From Alphaproteobacteria bacterium (GTDB lineage: Bacteria > Pseudomonadota > Alphaproteobacteria > UBA7985 > JAUIBT01), in contig JAUIBT010000003.1 of NCBI GenBank assembly GCA_030428255.1, positions 124,001-188,000 of the forward strand: a stretch of DNA of 64,000 nt, in the 5' to 3' direction. The notes under the pieces were generated by a model. That model was not told the origin of the DNA and searched no databases. It was given only the letters and a program-made list of their open reading frames with translations. Made by a program: the position numbers and the translations under genes. Within the stretch, counting starts at the first letter, position 1. Each line of letters starts with the position of its first letter. This document shows, piece after piece, positions 53,249-63,883 of the stretch.

Positions 53249-54916
53249 CTAGTACAAGGGAATGTGCAGCCTGCCTTCCAGGGTCTGGCTGGTGTTGTTG
53301 CGGCCAAAGCTGGAGCGGCTGTATTCGAGCGAGACATTGCTGCCGTTCAGAACGCTGCCGACCCAGGTTCCAGGCGCAAAGCCCGTCAGGCGGCCGCGCA
53401 GGCCCGTGGACCAGGTGACACCCCAGTCGTCTGCCGTCAGCACGTCGCCGTTGGTCAGCGTGACATCGCCGCCATTGATCCAGTCCCATTCGCCCTGCAG
53501 GCTGATAAAGGGGCTAAGGCCCAGCGCCACCGGATCACGGCTGTCGATCATAAAGCCAAAGGCGCCCTGGCTCAGCTCTGCGCTGGAGGCTGCAATGGTC
53601 ACGCCGCTGGCGGTCCGATAGCCATCAATCCGCTCGTACATGTAGGTGGCTGAGGCATAGGGCGAGAGTTCAACCCCGATGGCGTCGAACTTGCTTTCTA
53701 TTCTGGCACCGGTCATCCAGCGCTCGCTGTCCGCCCGGCCCTTTTCGAAATCGGCTGTGACCTCGTTCTTAAAGCGGCCATAGGAGGCAAAGCCCTCGAC
53801 CGACACCAGCGCGTCCAGCTGCCAGCCGCCATAGACATCGCCGCGCCAACCGTCGCGCACCACTTTGCCATTGGCCAGCGCGTCGTATTCCAGGCGGCCC
53901 CATTCATAGGACACGCTGCCGCCCAGCAGCAGGTCGGGCGTGATCAGGTAGTCCGCGCCTGCAGTGGTGATGTAGCCGTAGCCATCATAGCCCGCCGTGC
54001 CTTTGCGCTCCAAGCTGCCCCAGGCCGCCGAGGCGTAAAAGTCCAGCGCGGCTTTGTCCAGGCCCACCGCCTCGATCGCCTCGTCGGCCAGGCCGAGCGC
54101 CTCTAAGTCCAGGTCCTCGATCTTATCGTTGGCCAGCTGGGCGGCATTGCGCGCCACCATGCTGGTTACATCGTCAGAGGAGATGCGCGTCCAACCGCTG
54201 TCGGTGAAGTCCGCCTGGCTGCCCTGTGCCCCGCAGCCCAAAGCGTCGTCCTGACGGCAGCCGATGCGTGAGAAGGTGCTGCTGGCGGCAATCTTGGTCG
54301 CGGCCTGCCCAAAGGCCTGTGCGCCAGCTTGGGCGGCTTGCTGATAGTGCGCTGTGGTCGCGGCAGGCACTGGCGGCGCTGGCGGCGCTGGCGGCGTGCC
54401 CGCGATCACAGGCCCGAATAAAACAGTGGTTGAATTTTCGGCCTTATGAACCCGCACATAATAAGGAGCACCTAGATAAACCCAGGTCAAATGATCGTCA
54501 AATGCCTTATCCTTCGACGAGTTGGGTATTTTGTATGAATTAGCCACGGAGTCACCATCGTATGGCGACAAGTCAACCCCACCGAAATATACAGAAATTA
54601 GCTCCGGAGGCGCGCCTATTGCCACGTACACGCCGTCTTGCAAGAACCCAGTACCAGCCTCGCTCGTGTTATTTATAATAACAATATTACTGAATACTTG
54701 CAAAGGCGTAATATTCCCGTTCGTCAGTGAACAGCTGTCAGCACGTATCACAATGTAAGATACTGCCACAAATGACACATCTCCGGATCCATTGTCGTCA
54801 GAAAAGGGTGCTTCGGCCCCACATCCTATCGTACTGGGCGTAAATGCATAGCTGGCAAACGGAGCGGTGCTAAAGACGAAGACCAGCAGAGATCGCAGGA
54901 CAAATGACCGGAACAT
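53249..54916 (-). CDS. Autotransporter-like outer-membrane beta-barrel protein
   Basis: A 555-aa protein. Signal peptide to about residue 24 (FASYAF); an N-terminal passenger (about 25-170) with several Asn, Ser and Thr and a Cys pair; a Pro-rich linker GTPPAPPAPPVPAATT (about 173-188); a helical segment; then an autotransporter beta-domain (about 295-555) with amphipathic strands such as LLLGGSVSYEWGRLEY and a terminal tyrosine (LHIPLY). The 5' end (about 54420-54800) is clearly more AT-rich than the barrel part. ATG 54916 has AAAGGG eight bases upstream. Substrate, target and secretion mode are unknown. Confidence 0.82.
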   Translation of the reverse strand: MFRSFVLRSLLVFVFSTAPFASYAFTPSTIGCGAEAPFSDDNGSGDVSFVAVSYIVIRADSCSLTNGNITPLQVFSNIVIINNTSEAGTGFLQDGVYVAIGAPPELISVYFGGVDLSPYDGDSVANSYKIPNSSKDKAFDDHLTWVYLGAPYYVRVHKAENSTTVLFGPVIAGTPPAPPAPPVPAATTAHYQQAAQAGAQAFGQAATKIAASSTFSRIGCRQDDALGCGAQGSQADFTDSGWTRISSDDVTSMVARNAAQLANDKIEDLDLEALGLADEAIEAVGLDKAALDFYASAAWGSLERKGTAGYDGYGYITTAGADYLITPDLLLGGSVSYEWGRLEYDALANGKVVRDGWRGDVYGGWQLDALVSVEGFASYGRFKNEVTADFEKGRADSERWMTGARIESKFDAIGVELSPYASATYMYERIDGYRTASGVTIAASSAELSQGAFGFMIDSRDPVALGLSPFISLQGEWDWINGGDVTLTNGDVLTADDWGVTWSTGLRGRLTGFAPGTWVGSVLNGSNVSLEYSRSSFGRNNTSQTLEGRLHIPLY

Positions 54917-55424
54917 TGGAAAACCCTTTAGTGGCCCATATTGTTTGGACGCCGCGCCGCAGTGACCGGCAAGCGCGATGACAGGAGGTTCAAAACACGT
55001 CGAATCATCGCCTGGCACGGCATGGAGCGACGCGGCTTTAGCGCCAGGAACCGTTTGTTATGTGTGTTGGTGGCTGCCTCAGCCTGTACCCAATCGATCT
55101 TCGCCTTTGGATGGCCTCCAAAGCGCGGATGTCTATGAGGCTGGCTTTGCTCATAAAGCCGAGACAGGATGGCTTGGTGCCGCTGACACGTCGTTGCGCT
55201 GAGCGCCAAACCTGATGTGAGGTACCGCGCTCGACTGAGAGCGCCTGCAATCGGCCCGGCCAAGCGGTGGTACCGCTTGCCAAGACTGTGCTGTCTGATG
55301 GGTCCAAGGCTGCCGGACGCCCTGCGCGCCCGCTGCTTGAACAAATGCCACGATGTCACGGCTTGCCCCTATGCGCCTCCGGTCGTTTCTAGCCGACTTT
55401 GGAGATGCTAACTTGTTCATAACT

Positions 55425-57195: not shown

Positions 57196-58839
57196 CTAGG
57201 CCGGGGCGGCGGCCGGTCCGCCGAAGCGGTCCAAGACGTTGCGGGTGACCGCCATAACCTGCAGGTCGCGCCGCTCAAGCCCGGCCACCCATTCGCAGGT
57301 CGCAGCGGTAAAGATGTCGCCCGCACCCTTGCGCCAGGCAATGATCATTCCGGTGCCGCGGGCGCTGGCGTCCAGCGTCTTCGCGCTAACCTCACCATAG
57401 AGCGCTTTGGCCTTGAAGGCTGCGTCGCTGGCGCCGACATACAGCGTCTCTCCCCAAACCTTCCTATCCACTTCGATGTTGGCGGCCAGTCCCATGGCCA
57501 GGATGTTGATCTCAGCGCTAGCGCCGTCGCTACCGGTGGGGAAGGGCAGGCCGCCTTGCATGCGATAGTCCAGCCCATCGACTTCGTAGCCGAAAATGCG
57601 CGAGGACGCTCCCAGCACATCCCCAAAGCCAAGCCCCGCACCATCGAAGCACCAGTAATCGGGGCGGTATACGGTAAAGCCGCCTGCACCGTTACCAGCG
57701 CAGCCACCGAGCCCCGCATAGATCCCTCTTAGTGCGTTGACGCCAAAGGTGGCCGCGCCGGGCCTGTTCACCGGTGCGACCTCCCAGGCTGCCGTGGTCA
57801 AATGCGGGGTCGCGCTGGCGGCCATAGGGTCGCGCACGGCTTCGTATTTGTAGCAAACTTGGGTCTGCCCTCGATCCTCAAGACGCGTTTGCCACAGGAA
57901 ATTGCCTGCAAAGCGAGCCACCCGCCCGCCTGCGTCAACATAGGCATCCACGGCGTCGCGCATGGGTGCGCTCCAGTACTCGTCGTGCCCCACAAAGATT
58001 GCGCAGGCATGGCCGTTCAGCCGGCTGGGATCGGCGTCAAGGTCGTGCAAGGTCGCGACGTCCAGCTCATAGCCCTCGGCTTCGGCCCAGCGGGCAAAGA
58101 GGCGCTCATAGCTCGCCCAGCCACTTGAGGCATATTTCTTGGAATAGCCGTAGGCATAAGCCCATTCCATGTAGGGGTAACGCGTCATCTCGCCCGGTTT
58201 GGCCGGAACATCGGGCAGGGCGCGCGGGGCACCGGCAGGCAATTTGCAGAACCCGCGTGTCCAGGGGCGTTGGCTGGACAGAACCGGCGAGTATTGGTTG
58301 GCCTGGGGCCCGGTGATGCCGTCGTAGTGGTTCGAGCCGCCCCAACAGTTGTAGGCGACCCATGTCCCGGTCGCGCAAACCAGTAGGTAGGGCGCCGGGG
58401 GCAAATGCGCTGCCCGGCGGACCAGGATCAGGTGGTGTTCTTCTACGCGATCGTTGCCTCGCGTGGCGGTCAGGGTGATCAGATATCCCCCGGGTCTCCA
58501 GTCGTCGGGTACTTTAAAGCGCGCGCCTTCCGGCCAGCCGCAGCCGACTATCGAGCAATCTTTGGGGGTGTCGTGATGGCGGCCCGGCAAATCCGCCTCG
58601 CTCAACAACGGCTCATAGCGCAGCCCGTCGCGGCCAACCTCAAACGACCAGCGCTCCGCAGTTGTCGAGACATGCAGCGCTACCTCTTCGCCTGGTGCGT
58701 AGGTCATGCGCGGCGTGTAACCCCATATCTCTAACACCGAGGCATCGCGCGCAGGCCCGATGTAATAATTGTCGAGGATGTGACGGGCCCGGGCGCGGGT
58801 GCGCGGTGTGATGGCAGGGCCTGGGCCTTCGGTCGTCAT
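57196..58839 (-). CDS. N,N-dimethylformamidase large subunit-like hydrolase
   Basis: A 547-aa protein without a signal peptide that matches the C-terminal catalytic part of dimethylformamidase beta subunits. Family landmarks are VAYNCWGGSNHYDG (about residues 161-174), YPYMEWAYAYGY (about 221-232), YELDVATLHDLDADPS and FVGHDEYWSAPMRDAV (His285, Glu287). From recollection the characterised enzyme holds a mononuclear iron with two tyrosines and a glutamate, and the HxE and tyrosine-rich motifs here are compatible. An N-terminal beta-rich domain (about 30-140) is present. It is shorter than the DMFase large subunit and no small-subunit gene is adjacent. ATG 58839 has GGAG eight bases upstream and lies four bases after the CoA-transferase stop. 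Confidence 0.82.
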   Translation of the reverse strand: MTTEGPGPAITPRTRARARHILDNYYIGPARDASVLEIWGYTPRMTYAPGEEVALHVSTTAERWSFEVGRDGLRYEPLLSEADLPGRHHDTPKDCSIVGCGWPEGARFKVPDDWRPGGYLITLTATRGNDRVEEHHLILVRRAAHLPPAPYLLVCATGTWVAYNCWGGSNHYDGITGPQANQYSPVLSSQRPWTRGFCKLPAGAPRALPDVPAKPGEMTRYPYMEWAYAYGYSKKYASSGWASYERLFARWAEAEGYELDVATLHDLDADPSRLNGHACAIFVGHDEYWSAPMRDAVDAYVDAGGRVARFAGNFLWQTRLEDRGQTQVCYKYEAVRDPMAASATPHLTTAAWEVAPVNRPGAATFGVNALRGIYAGLGGCAGNGAGGFTVYRPDYWCFDGAGLGFGDVLGASSRIFGYEVDGLDYRMQGGLPFPTGSDGASAEINILAMGLAANIEVDRKVWGETLYVGASDAAFKAKALYGEVSAKTLDASARGTGMIIAWRKGAGDIFTAATCEWVAGLERRDLQVMAVTRNVLDRFGGPAAAPA

Positions 58840-58843
58840 ACGG

Positions 58844-61324
58844 CTACTCCGGTAGGTATCTTTCGGACCAGCCTTCACCGGCCGCTCCTGCCTGGATCAT
58901 TGCGTCAATTTCCGCCTCGCTCACCCCCAAGCGCGCAAGGATCGTGCGGGTTTGCGCCCCAGGCTTCGGTGCGTGGCCAGGGATGGTGATCGCAGCGTTC
59001 ATGGGGCGAACGGCATTGGGGGCGACCAGATCGACCCAACGGCCCATGGGGTGCGCATCGTGCCGGATCGCGCGATAGGTGGCCTGGCGAATATCAGCGG
59101 GGCCTTGGCTTTCGTGCTGCAGACTGGCGTCACGGTTGGCGGACAGCGATCCCAGCGCCACCAGGCCGACCGATCCCTGGCGAAACCGCTGCTGCCAGTG
59201 CGCGATAGGCTGTAGAGCAAAGCGTTCGGCGAGCTTGTCGGTTAGCCCATCGCCGCTCATCGCAGCCAGGTCTGCCAGTTCTGGCACCCTTGCGAGGCAG
59301 CGAGCGCCCTCGCTTGGAGCGGCGAAAAAGAACCAGCCGTCTGCTGCGTGATAGCAGTGGTAGAAGGGCCCCCAGCCGTGCGCCTGCCGCCCTGCGGGTT
59401 CATCAAAGGCGGCGCGACCAGCAAAATCGTACATGAACTGCGCTTGGATCATCGCCCCACAGCCAGCCAGCGCCGCACGCGCCAAACTGCTCTTGCCGGT
59501 GGTGCGCCGCCGCTCCAGCGCTGCGCCAAGGGCAACGCAGGCAGTGTGACCCGTGAGGGCGTCTATTGTGCCAAAATGGGCATGCTCCTCGGGCGTGTCA
59601 GGGCCTCCGCCAAACCGGACCATCACGCCAGTTGCAGCCTGAGCAAGATCGTCATAGCCCAAGTGGTCTGACCTTGGCCCGCGCCGCGGTCCTCCCCAAG
59701 CGTCGAGCTGCACCAGAATGGCCTTGGGGTTCAACGCCGCGAGCGCGGTGGGCGACAGGCCAAGCGCATCGCGCTGTTGGTCAGTTCCGTTGATCGTCAC
59801 CACATCAGCACCTTCGACGAGCCGCTTTAAGACCCCGCGCCCTTCCGCGCTGCCAAGGTCCAACAGCAGGCTCTCCTTATCGCGATGAGCCTGCAGGCCA
59901 AAGACGATGGCGTTCCAAGGATCGACCGATGGGGTGACTGGCTGCACCGACGTTACCTTGGCTCCGAACCGCGCCAAGGTCGAGCCGATGGTCGGACCGG
60001 CGATCACATTGGTTAGATCAACAACGTTAAGGCCATCCAGCCACCCGCCTTGACCTCCGGCTTTGGGCGCGGGGCGTGGCGGTTCGGCCAAGAGCGCGGG
60101 CAGGGCGGCGCGGAAATCATCGACCTGGGGACCGGGCGTCTTATCCATCGCGCCCGGGTCATCGGCCAGCCATGCCAGATTGCCCAGTTGGCGCATGGTG
60201 CCATGTCGCGGATCATCGACCGACAGCACCAGCCCTGAGGCCTGCGCATGCGGATCGGCCAGCCATTCTTTGGTGCTGAGCTGTGAGGTTGCTGGAGCCT
60301 TGGCCGCACCGAACAGGGCCTGCCATTCCCACGAGGGCTTGGTGGCAAAGGCCGCTTGCATCGCCTGAGCCAGGCGCGCACGGTCGCGGTCGCCCACAGG
60401 ATAGTTGCGCATGGCCCAGGCGTCCGGCCAGTCTCGTTGATCTAGATAGGCGTCAAAGTCGGGCAGCGTTGCCGCCAATTCTTGTAATCCCAACACCTGC
60501 AGCACCCGTTGTGGGTGGGTGGAGATCGAACAGGCGACGACATAGAAGCCGCGTCCGTCCGCACAGCGGTAGGTTCGATAAAATGGGTCTAAAAAGGCGC
60601 TCAAATCCTGAAAGCTCAAATCCAGCGGCAGCCCAGCCGCGCGGCGGCGCTCCAACTCAACCTCACGCGGGGACTTGTATCGCGCGGGGTAATCCTCAAC
60701 TTGTTCGCAGTTATAGACCAAGCCTTCAAACAACGCAGAGGCCAGCGGCACTTCGATATGTTCGCCGCCCAAGCGGTCACGCGCACCAAGCGCGAACAGA
60801 ACCGACATGGCCCCAAAGGCCGCGCCATAGGCCGAGGCCAGGCCAAGCGGCGTAAAGGAAGGGTTGATCCCCATCAACTGCCTGTTGAGTCCCATGTCGG
60901 TAAACTGCCCCGTGCGTGCGGCGATCACCGCCTCCCAGGCGGCGACGGGAGCAAGCTCGGGATCGCTGGAGGCGAAGCCTGGCAGTGAGAGCGAAACAAT
61001 GCCGGGGTTCGCAGCGCGTAAATCGGCAGGGCCAAGCCCCAGCCGTGTCATCACACCGGGGCGGAAATTGTCGATCACCACATCAGCGCGCGCGACCATT
61101 TGCAGAGCCGTTTGACGGTCTTCGGCGTCCTTAAGGTCCAGCGTCAGCGCCCGTTTCCCGCGCGATAGCATATCACATGCGGGATCTTGCCAACGCGGCC
61201 CGCCTGGCGGGTCGATGCGAATCACCTCGGCCCCCATGTCGGCAAGCATCATGCCCACCATAGGCCCAGCAAGATAGTGGCCGAAATCCAAAACGCGAAG
61301 GTGCGATAAGGGGCGAAGGCTCAT
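58844..61324 (-). CDS. Tandem-fused CaiB/BaiF CoA-transferase
   Basis: An 826-aa protein with two class III CoA-transferase units in one chain: domain 1 about residues 1-400 (VLDFGHYLAGPMVGMMLADMG) and domain 2 about 425-826 (VVDLTNVIAGPTIGSTLARFG), joined by a Pro/Ala-rich linker (411-425). The catalytic aspartate motif is visible only in domain 2 (GTIDALTG, Asp588). The corresponding stretch of domain 1 reads PLGLASAYGAAFG and lacks Asp. Likely moves CoA to or from a carboxylic acid; substrate unknown. It is the first gene of a two-gene operon with the dimethylformamidase-like hydrolase and is divergent from an AraC-type regulator. Confidence 0.88.
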   Translation of the reverse strand: MSLRPLSHLRVLDFGHYLAGPMVGMMLADMGAEVIRIDPPGGPRWQDPACDMLSRGKRALTLDLKDAEDRQTALQMVARADVVIDNFRPGVMTRLGLGPADLRAANPGIVSLSLPGFASSDPELAPVAAWEAVIAARTGQFTDMGLNRQLMGINPSFTPLGLASAYGAAFGAMSVLFALGARDRLGGEHIEVPLASALFEGLVYNCEQVEDYPARYKSPREVELERRRAAGLPLDLSFQDLSAFLDPFYRTYRCADGRGFYVVACSISTHPQRVLQVLGLQELAATLPDFDAYLDQRDWPDAWAMRNYPVGDRDRARLAQAMQAAFATKPSWEWQALFGAAKAPATSQLSTKEWLADPHAQASGLVLSVDDPRHGTMRQLGNLAWLADDPGAMDKTPGPQVDDFRAALPALLAEPPRPAPKAGGQGGWLDGLNVVDLTNVIAGPTIGSTLARFGAKVTSVQPVTPSVDPWNAIVFGLQAHRDKESLLLDLGSAEGRGVLKRLVEGADVVTINGTDQQRDALGLSPTALAALNPKAILVQLDAWGGPRRGPRSDHLGYDDLAQAATGVMVRFGGGPDTPEEHAHFGTIDALTGHTACVALGAALERRRTTGKSSLARAALAGCGAMIQAQFMYDFAGRAAFDEPAGRQAHGWGPFYHCYHAADGWFFFAAPSEGARCLARVPELADLAAMSGDGLTDKLAERFALQPIAHWQQRFRQGSVGLVALGSLSANRDASLQHESQGPADIRQATYRAIRHDAHPMGRWVDLVAPNAVRPMNAAITIPGHAPKPGAQTRTILARLGVSEAEIDAMIQAGAAGEGWSERYLPE

Positions 61325-61390
61325 GGTGGGGCTCCACTGGAATTTGGCCTTTGATACTAGCGGTAGCGGCGATCAAGGAAATCACCAATA

Positions 61391-61418
61391 CTGCCAATTA
61401 TGCAACCGATTCTGCCAA
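61391..61418. promoter_or_regulatory. Direct repeats CTGCCAA at the AraC-type regulator start
   Basis: CTGCCAA occurs at 61391-61397 and 61412-61418, 21 bases apart (two helical turns), as expected for AraC-family half-sites. The second copy is inside the regulator's first codons, which would suit autoregulation. Confidence 0.35.
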
Positions 61419-62332
61419 AAACGAACGCGAAGCTTTGCGTGAACATCCTGGTATTCGACGCATTCTCCAACATGCTCCTAGCGTGTTTGCTGGAACCGCT
61501 GAGGGTTGTGCGCGATGAAAGCAACGTTGACATAAGCTGGGTCATTTTTACCCCACATGACAGGGCCGTCACCTCGTCAAGCGGCCTATTGCTTGCGCCG
61601 GACCGCCACCTATCGCACCTGAAAGCCTGCGATGTGCTGTTGGTGATCGGGGGGGATCGCTTTCGCGGCGAAGCCAGCGCAGCCGAGACCCGGCGCGCCT
61701 TGATGGCGGTGCACAAGGCCAGCAGCGTCATCGCTGCGGATACGGGTGCTTGGCTTTTGGCGGCCGCTGGATACCTGAACGGCAAACAGGCCACCTTGCA
61801 TTGGCAACTGCTGAATGAGTTCGCCGAGACTTTTCCCGAGGTGCTGGGTCTGCGCACACCTTTTGCCACAGATGGCAAGTGGATGACCTGCGGTAGTGCA
61901 GCCGGCGCCATGGAGCTGGTGCTTCAGGAAATCGCTCGGCGGTTTGGCGCAGCAGCGCGCTTTGATGCCGCTTCGATGTTCCAGGATGCCCCGCGCCGTG
62001 GGCGCGCGCTCGATACTGGCTTTGGCGGGCTTCCCTCACACCCGAATCCACGTGTGCGCAAGGTGCTGGATCTCATGGCCGCCTCGATTGAAACCCCCCG
62101 CAGCTTGCCGGATCTGGCCGCTGCCGCTGGCCTTACTTTGCGGACAATGGCGCGCTTGTTTGAGGCGGAGGTCGGGCTGCCTCCCGGTAAATGCTACCAG
62201 CATATGCGACTGGCCCGGGCGCGGGGGCTCATGACTCAGCAAGGCATGACCGCCGACCAGGCTGGGCGGCTCTGCGGGTTTTCCTGCGCCGCGTCGTTGA
62301 AGCGCGCCTTAGCAAAGTGCCAGCCTGTTTAG
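61400..62332 (+). CDS. GATase1/DJ-1 + AraC-type transcriptional regulator (GbdR/CdhR/ArgR-like)
   Basis: A 310-aa regulator with an N-terminal DJ-1/PfpI-like domain (about residues 10-190) and a C-terminal AraC HTH domain (about 212-310). In place of the DJ-1 nucleophile the sequence is AADTGAWLLAAAG followed by KQATLHW, the Asp-type signature of GbdR, CdhR and ArgR, which respond to amine or amino-acid-derived ligands. The AraC domain ends soon after LCGFSCAASLKRAL, so the second HTH is slightly short. It is 75 bases from, and divergent to, the CoA-transferase operon, which it probably controls. Confidence 0.87.
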   Translation: MQPILPKTNAKLCVNILVFDAFSNMLLACLLEPLRVVRDESNVDISWVIFTPHDRAVTSSSGLLLAPDRHLSHLKACDVLLVIGGDRFRGEASAAETRRALMAVHKASSVIAADTGAWLLAAAGYLNGKQATLHWQLLNEFAETFPEVLGLRTPFATDGKWMTCGSAAGAMELVLQEIARRFGAAARFDAASMFQDAPRRGRALDTGFGGLPSHPNPRVRKVLDLMAASIETPRSLPDLAAAAGLTLRTMARLFEAEVGLPPGKCYQHMRLARARGLMTQQGMTADQAGRLCGFSCAASLKRALAKCQPV

Positions 62333-62755: not shown

Positions 62756-63883
62756 TTACAGCGTGATCCAGCGCCTGTCTGCGTGCGATTGCTGCATGGC
62801 TTCAACCGCTCTTTGCACCTCGTAGGCCTCGCGGAAATCAGGTCCGCATGCTGGCCCACCGGCGTGGGCGCTCAACAGCTCGGCCACCTCGATCACCTTG
62901 AGATCGTTGAAGCCCAGGTGATGGCCAGGGGCGGGGCAAAAGGCGCCGTAAGGCGGATGGGCTGGGCCGGCTTCGATCCGCGTATATCCGCTGCGACCAG
63001 GCGTTGCCGACCAAAGCAGCAGCTCGTTCATCTGCTCCTGGCTGAACCCCAGCGCACCCTTCGTGCCCGTGATTTCCCAAGACAGATCCATGGTGCGCGC
63101 CGTTGCGGCCCAGTTGGCCTCCAGGCTGCCGCTCACACCGTTCTCAAACCGCAGCAGGGCATGGGTCATGTCGTCAACTTCGACCGGAGCGCGCTCGCTG
63201 GCACCAGGGGCCACCGGACGGGTAGCGTGGATGGTCCGACAATCGGCCTGCACCTCAGCGATGGGCCCCAGCAGATAGCGCGCCATCGAGATGATGTGAC
63301 TGCCGATATCGGCCAGCGCGCCGCCGCCTTGCGGATCGGTGCGGAAGGAGTGAGCAACCTCTGAGTTCGCCATGTAGTTTTCGGCATGACGACCACGAAA
63401 GCCCGTCACCTCGCCGATCTCACCAGAGGCGATGATCTCGCGTGCCAGCTTGATCATGGGATTGCGCAAGAAGTTGAAGCCAACTAGCGTGACCACACTG
63501 GCGGCCTCGGCGGCCTCGGTCATTTCCAGCGCGATGGCCGCTGTGGTTGACAGCGGCTTTTCGCAATAGACCGTCTTGCCCGCCGCAATCGCGGCGTGCG
63601 CAATGGGGGCATGCAGCACATTGGGCGCCGTGATGGCGACGATATCGACCGCCTCATCAGCCACCAGTTCTTGCCAGCTCCCGGTGCCGCGCACAAAGCC
63701 CAGCGCTTGGGCGGCTTGGGCTGCCAGCTCGTCGCTTGCATCGGCCAACACGTTTAGCCGCGGTTCAAGGGGCACATCGAACAGCCCGGCGACCGACCTG
63801 AAGGCATTCGCGTGGCAGCGCCCCATGAAGCCCGATCCGATCAGGCCGATTCCGACCGATGCGCGTTTGTCGTCCTGAGCCAT
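62756..63883 (-). CDS. Gfo/Idh/MocA family oxidoreductase
   Basis: A 375-aa NAD(P)-dependent dehydrogenase. Rossmann IGLIGSGFMGRCHANAF at the N terminus, catalytic YCEKPLSTTAAIALEM (about residues 93-108), and GGGALADIGSHIISMARYLL with the Asp/His pair (about 188-207). The ATG is six bases after the stop of a sugar ABC permease gene, so it belongs to an uptake-and-oxidation operon running in from the right edge. Substrate probably a sugar or cyclitol. Confidence 0.93.
   Translation of the reverse strand: MAQDDKRASVGIGLIGSGFMGRCHANAFRSVAGLFDVPLEPRLNVLADASDELAAQAAQALGFVRGTGSWQELVADEAVDIVAITAPNVLHAPIAHAAIAAGKTVYCEKPLSTTAAIALEMTEAAEAASVVTLVGFNFLRNPMIKLAREIIASGEIGEVTGFRGRHAENYMANSEVAHSFRTDPQGGGALADIGSHIISMARYLLGPIAEVQADCRTIHATRPVAPGASERAPVEVDDMTHALLRFENGVSGSLEANWAATARTMDLSWEITGTKGALGFSQEQMNELLLWSATPGRSGYTRIEAGPAHPPYGAFCPAPGHHLGFNDLKVIEVAELLSAHAGGPACGPDFREAYEVQRAVEAMQQSHADRRWITL

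Follow-up and report, generated by a model that had tools for sequence, protein, structure and literature searches.

Analysis of a 64,000-nucleotide stretch of an alphaproteobacterial contig (hereafter, the window) confirmed that the three genes reported in a preliminary description of this DNA are real and lie at the positions noted there (Table 1). They encode a hydrolase of the dimethylformamidase (DMFase) type, a fused class III CoA-transferase, and a divergently oriented regulator of the GATase1-AraC group. The stop codon of the transferase gene is separated from the ATG of the hydrolase gene by 4 bases; the list of open reading frames places the hydrolase start farther out, at the GTG of 58878, but a frame of that length would run into the preceding gene. 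A scan for sigma-70 promoters found none. The window neighbours of the module were NhaA, a Gfo/Idh/MocA oxidoreductase, and the GATase1-AraC regulator. The closest family of the oxidoreductase (window positions 62756-63883) was levoglucosan dehydrogenase, with a score far under the cut-off of that family, and the gene next to it runs beyond the window edge. An autotransporter beta-domain protein (PF03797) encoded at 53249-55018 showed no evident tie to the cluster.

Table 1. Features of the hydrolase-transferase-regulator locus in the window and the corresponding gene pair of Dinoroseobacter shibae.
Feature	Position	Strand	Description and basis
DMFase-type hydrolase (PF20254)	57196..58839	-	547 aa, ATG at 58839; Pfam
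Fused class III CoA-transferase, DddD-like paralogue	58844..61324	-	826 aa; tandem PF02515
First CaiB half of the transferase (residues 6-401)	60122..61309	-	Lacks the catalytic Asp, conserved SAYG; domain range and alignments
Asp588 codon	59561..59563	-	GTID motif of the second CaiB half; predicted catalytic, invariant; alignment
Regulator/transferase intergenic region (divergent genes)	61325..61399		75 bp
Predicted operator	61391..61418	-	Direct repeat TTGGCAG-N14-TTGGCAG; 21-bp period
GATase1-AraC regulator, CdhR/GbdR-like	61400..62332	+	DJ-1/PfpI and AraC helix-turn-helix domains; tree
Gene pair on D. shibae plasmid pDSHI01	L090, 14602-16143 and 12001-14481

The hydrolase matched the DMFA2_C family at 8.5e-64. 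A search of the PDB with the hydrolase as a single sequence gave no match even at E = 10, and a profile search tied it to DMFase and N-acetyl-(R)-beta-phenylalanine acylase. The iron ligands and catalytic residues of DMFase are Y399, Y440, E521, H519, N547, and E657 (PMC7686228). In the alignment these corresponded to Y163, Y172, and E287 of the hydrolase, the predicted Fe ligands, and to H285, N313, and E419, the predicted catalytic residues; all six were invariant among 32 hydrolase homologues. The AlphaFold model of the hydrolase (mean pLDDT 73) was most similar to the acylase (8i5a, Z 24.7; also solved as 8huy) and to DMFase (6lvb, Z 24.1), and the many beta-sandwich and ThuA-like matches returned by Foldseek and VIA-align ranked below both amide hydrolases. 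Loops 164-196 and 316-358 were modelled poorly, and the assignment of the second tyrosine ligand, Y172, rests on the sequence alignment because its loop has low model confidence.

Comparison with the N,N-dimethylformamidase of Paracoccus demonstrated a common core fold and the same set of metal and catalytic residues (2-Tyr-1-Glu, His, Asn, and Glu). However, the hydrolase has 547 aa against 762 aa in the large subunit of DMFase and lacks most of its N-terminal part, and no open reading frame of the DMFase small-subunit type was found adjacent to it. The acylase belongs to the same superfamily and acts on an N-acyl beta-amino acid; relative to it, the hydrolase is shorter and only 13–23% identical. 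The hydrolase is probably an iron-dependent amide-cutting enzyme with an intact predicted Fe site. The dimethylformamidase-like assignment of the preliminary description is thereby upheld, including the presence of the metal-site residues for which a structural check had been suggested.

The transferase consists of two PF02515 (CaiB) stretches in one chain, of which only the second retains the catalytic Asp. It was 40–46% identical over its full length to proteins of the DddD clade and resembled DddD of NGR234, Marinomonas, and Halomonas in the tandem CaiB halves, the equal total length, and the retention of the Asp in the second half only. Against the L-carnitine CoA-transferase CaiB (NF002914), it scored 99.1 bits, with a cut-off of 413. 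The crotonobetaine-carnitine system CaiB/CaiD belongs to the same transferase superfamily, and its product, carnitine, would also be the product in the reading proposed below; however, CaiB and CaiD are separate proteins, whereas here a single fused protein is found. DddD is well established as an enzyme that carries out CoA transfer followed by a lyase/hydration step, with DMS and a 3-hydroxypropionate product (Alcolombri 2014 as cited; PMC3338564). By analogy, the clade of the transferase may perform DddD-like chemistry at a beta carbon, the reaction being assumed from DddD at the above level of identity. The CoA activation of the acid envisaged in the preliminary description is not supported in that form; the transferase is a paralogue of DddD, a type that combines CoA transfer with beta-elimination/hydration.

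A phylogenetic analysis of 57 transferase proteins showed that the window protein and its relatives were separate from the clade of dddD genes known from the literature; both stems had support of 100/100, and about 4 substitutions per site lay between the clades. The DddD clade included the gene of Sinorhizobium fredii NGR234, which has been named dddD (PMC3338564), and a Phaeobacter piscinae gene flanked by genes for GMC, BCCT, and semialdehyde dehydrogenase proteins, while every hydrolase-linked copy fell on one side of the tree. Both types were present in sampled Ruegeria genomes. Dshi_3632 of D. shibae is listed as dddD, with 43% identity to Halomonas DddD (PMC4069834). Because the D. shibae genome has only one such match, Dshi_3632 must be the pDSHI01 gene of the hydrolase-linked clade; it thus almost certainly belongs to that clade, and its dddD/DMSP-lyase label is doubtful.

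That annotation, together with the full-length similarity and the equal catalytic layout, would be consistent with a genuine DMSP lyase in the window, next to which the hydrolase would be an unrelated neighbour. We consider this very unlikely, given the deep separation of the clade from the NGR234 gene and the genes with dddA/T/C-type flanks, and given that the regulator and the operons of relatives are of the carnitine type. In addition, the partners of the transferase are the hydrolase and the GATase1-AraC regulator rather than dddA/T/C/R-type genes: unlike at locus L095, no linked dddA (GMC dehydrogenase), dddT (BCCT), dddC (semialdehyde dehydrogenase), or LysR genes were found among the window neighbours.

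Scanning of genome contigs with the hydrolase as the query yielded 80 loci, 46 of which had at least about 62% identity. The fused transferase was found in the flank of approximately 30 of these 46 close-hydrolase loci, mostly 4–8 bases upstream, and the matching divergent regulator in 19 of the 30 loci that had both genes. The claim that the pair is co-transcribed, first made from the 4-base gap alone, is strengthened by the conservation of this spacing. To quantify the linkage, 394 genomes from a single Rhodobacterales family (that around Ruegeria marisrubri) were compared. The transferase clade (68–81% identity) was present in 10 of them, with a close hydrolase directly adjacent in 6, while an intact close hydrolase occurred in only 1 of the 384 genomes without it; two more close matches were fragments (Fisher p ~3e-10). 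The other 14 transferase matches in these genomes were of the DddD type (41–47% identity), and none had a close hydrolase beside it. The linkage of the two genes is thus beyond chance, and the homologues proved to be linked in the gene-neighbourhood search that had been recommended.

The partners were also found apart. Five members of the transferase clade had no hydrolase and were accompanied by a divergent LysR gene, and four close hydrolases stood alone. Some of the five transferase loci adjoined recombinase-/transposase-like or phn-like (C-P lyase) genes. Such separate occurrences would be expected if the genes were mere neighbours and did not serve one pathway. Against this stand the direct adjacency in 6 of the 10 transferase carriers, the retention of the pair with a 50% identical hydrolase paralogue at one locus (L139), and its presence in the gammaproteobacterium Halomonas (L016), which make independent functions extremely improbable.

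The pair is also plasmid-borne in Shinella and D. shibae, and its distribution points to a conserved, horizontally mobile module. The alphaproteobacterial order of the host is rarely sampled; in the 11 genomes of its family and order that were searched, the transferase was found only in that of the window. As it was absent from the 10 other genomes, including two congeners, the locus was probably acquired by the host; for the same reason, conservation was studied in other orders.

The regulator scored 127.4 bits against GbdR (NF052371), with a cut-off of 480. A tree of 25 regulators, in which those of carnitine operons came from Rhodobacterales and P. aeruginosa CdhR was not included, grouped the regulators of the module with those of carnitine operons (L176, L183-L187) and apart from those linked to gbc or glycine betaine genes (support 100/99). 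The closest outsider came from L176, where carnitine genes and the module share one operon. The predicted operator is a perfect repeat, and a search of the whole window that allowed up to one mismatch returned this site alone, with 0.07 matches expected. The repeat was found with 0–1 mismatch at the equivalent place in 14 other related loci, although some loci that have this type of regulator lack it; in loci without the regulator type, it was not seen at that place. The CdhR protein of P. aeruginosa recognises GGTCGC half-sites separated by 15 bp, and the 21-bp period of this mapped operator is that of the predicted one (PMC5806209). As the repeat covers the annotated ATG at the 5' end of the regulator frame, the true start may be downstream, possibly at the GTG near 61439.

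These features resemble the CdhR-controlled caiX-cdhCAB-hocS operon of P. aeruginosa, which likewise has a divergent GATase1-AraC regulator, a direct repeat of 21-bp period, and a hydrolase as an accessory gene; the downstream genes are the same in relatives of the window locus. In contrast to that operon, the dehydrogenase and BKACE genes are on another contig in the genome of the window, the additional enzymes resemble DMFase and DddD, and the ABC transporter of relatives is of the peptide type and not of the betaine type. The regulator is most likely of the CdhR type, with predicted control by compounds of the carnitine family. Its domains and its position in the tree agree with the earlier placement in an amine- or betaine-sensing group.

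Three relatives carried the hydrolase in one operon with carnitine genes and a peptide-type ABC transporter, two of them together with the transferase. In L176 (continued by L151), a divergent regulator is followed by BKACE, a fused carnitine 3-dehydrogenase/thioesterase (NF005716, 732 bits, cut-off 592), SBP5, two permeases, an ATPase, the DddD-like transferase, and the hydrolase. L035 contains BKACE, CdhAB, SBP5, permeases, an ATPase, and the hydrolase as the last gene, without the transferase, and L046, where the contig end cuts the run so that only the thioesterase part of the carnitine genes is present, contains this thioesterase, the transferase, SBP5, permeases, and the hydrolase. In three further loci, the binding-protein gene of the transporter is retained between the transferase and hydrolase genes. 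A rough binomial estimate for finding three such carnitine operons in 45 loci was ~1e-3. Further genes near the module included one similar to gamma-butyrobetaine dioxygenase (BBOX) in three loci, with scores under the family cut-offs; choline sulfatase, GbcA-like, and BKACE-type genes at L150; and a BCCT transporter at the Halomonas locus. These operons, the DddD likeness, and the conserved predicted operator are absent from the preliminary description.

In most loci, however, the carnitine genes are located elsewhere in the genome. The window itself lacks carnitine dehydrogenase and BKACE, and its genome has a BKACE-CdhAB operon on a different contig, C56. Genome-level co-occurrence with carnitine dehydrogenase is weak evidence, as the gene was present in 301 of the 394 genomes. 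In D. shibae, which has both the transferase and the hydrolase, carnitine dehydrogenase was not found at E<=1e-60. In three genomes, a second carnitine dehydrogenase of higher similarity was encoded on the contig of the transferase, 22–35 kb away; the two of these regions that were inspected also contained, nearby, a gene resembling acetoacetyl-CoA synthetase (by eye) and one for a BCCT-like transporter.

Taken together, the hydrolase family reaches beyond carnitine, because distant members occur in ectoine clusters or beside acetylpolyamine-deacetylase-like genes. On two Rhizobium plasmids, a 49–50% identical paralogue is part of ectoine/hydroxyectoine degradation clusters with eutB, an Xaa-Pro peptidase, an M20 peptidase, and an Lrp regulator. 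In Mesorhizobium, a class III aminotransferase gene and one resembling acetylpolyamine deacetylase (by eye) often come after hydrolases of approximately 50% identity, which suggests a different amide substrate. Other distant relatives adjoin hydantoinase and oligopeptide ABC genes.

This diversity, the likeness of the hydrolase to DMFase, and the lack of a detected carnitine dehydrogenase in D. shibae would all fit a pathway outside carnitine metabolism that degrades a different N-substituted amide and simply activates the acid with CoA. We regard this as improbable in view of the carnitine operons, the regulator tree, and the geometry of the operator, which point to carnitine metabolism specifically. 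The breakdown of an N-substituted amide, as put forward in the preliminary description, is supported with regard to the amidase-type hydrolase but not for a generic amide as substrate. Its remark that the combination is not a recognised pathway holds: no paper describing it was found, and a literature search for dimethylformamidase paired with a CoA-transferase returned only an unrelated hen-gut study.

We infer the link to carnitine from gene neighbourhoods, with regulator phylogeny and operator geometry pointing in the same direction, and propose, at slightly better than even confidence, that the locus provides a mobile side entry into the catabolism of carnitine and is controlled by a regulator of the CdhR type. 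While the parts of the module, their conservation, and their association are evident from the sequences, its substrate, order of reactions, and product are deduced. The cell would take up a betaine of the carnitine family that carries an amide (or acyl) group, and the hydrolase would cut the amide/acyl bond with Fe3+-activated water. At Asp588 of the transferase, the acid set free would be transferred to CoA; elimination and hydration at its beta carbon, of the kind that DddD carries out on DMSP, would then give carnitine. Carnitine 3-dehydrogenase, BKACE, and thioesterase, encoded elsewhere in the genome, would convert carnitine to glycine betaine. The points against a side entry are the result in D. 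shibae, the restriction of the shared operon to three loci, and the occasional separation of the partners.

Candidate substrates are N-acyl-aminocarnitine, carnitinamide, and O-acylcarnitine. For the last of these, the hydrolase would be a short-chain O-acylcarnitine hydrolase analogous to HocS, and the transferase would handle crotonobetaine or D-carnitine via CoA thioesters, so that the chemistry would be that of an ester and the module would still belong to carnitine. The P. aeruginosa caiX-cdhCAB-hocS operon encodes short-chain acylcarnitine hydrolysis (PMC5806209), the hydrolase of L035 is the last gene of a carnitine operon, and transferases without a hydrolase would be expected if the two enzymes had different substrates. 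However, both enzymes of solved structure found with the hydrolase fold act on amides, and the peptide-type ABC transporter is no known acylcarnitine importer; on balance, we judge ester cleavage possible but unlikely.

The side entry would take its most specific form, here quite speculative, if the module degraded N-acyl-aminocarnitines of the emericedin type. The hydrolase would then act as an acylase of N-acyl beta-amino acids that releases aminocarnitine (emeriamine), a natural compound (PMC11154567), and the DddD-like enzyme would exchange the beta-amino group for a hydroxyl via a CoA thioester to form L-carnitine. If true, the pathway would be new, and so would the activity for the DddD family.

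The dddD gene serves as a marker for the production of the climate-active gas DMS. The roseobacter and rhizobial dddD-like clade described here, including the D. shibae gene, keeps different neighbours and probably does not act on DMSP; therefore, counts of dddD as a marker gene may be inflated. In addition, the analysis proposes a previously undescribed way into carnitine catabolism, for which it defines a pair of enzymes and an operator that can be tested, and the widespread DMFA2_C hydrolases, so far without a function, gain a concrete metabolic context.
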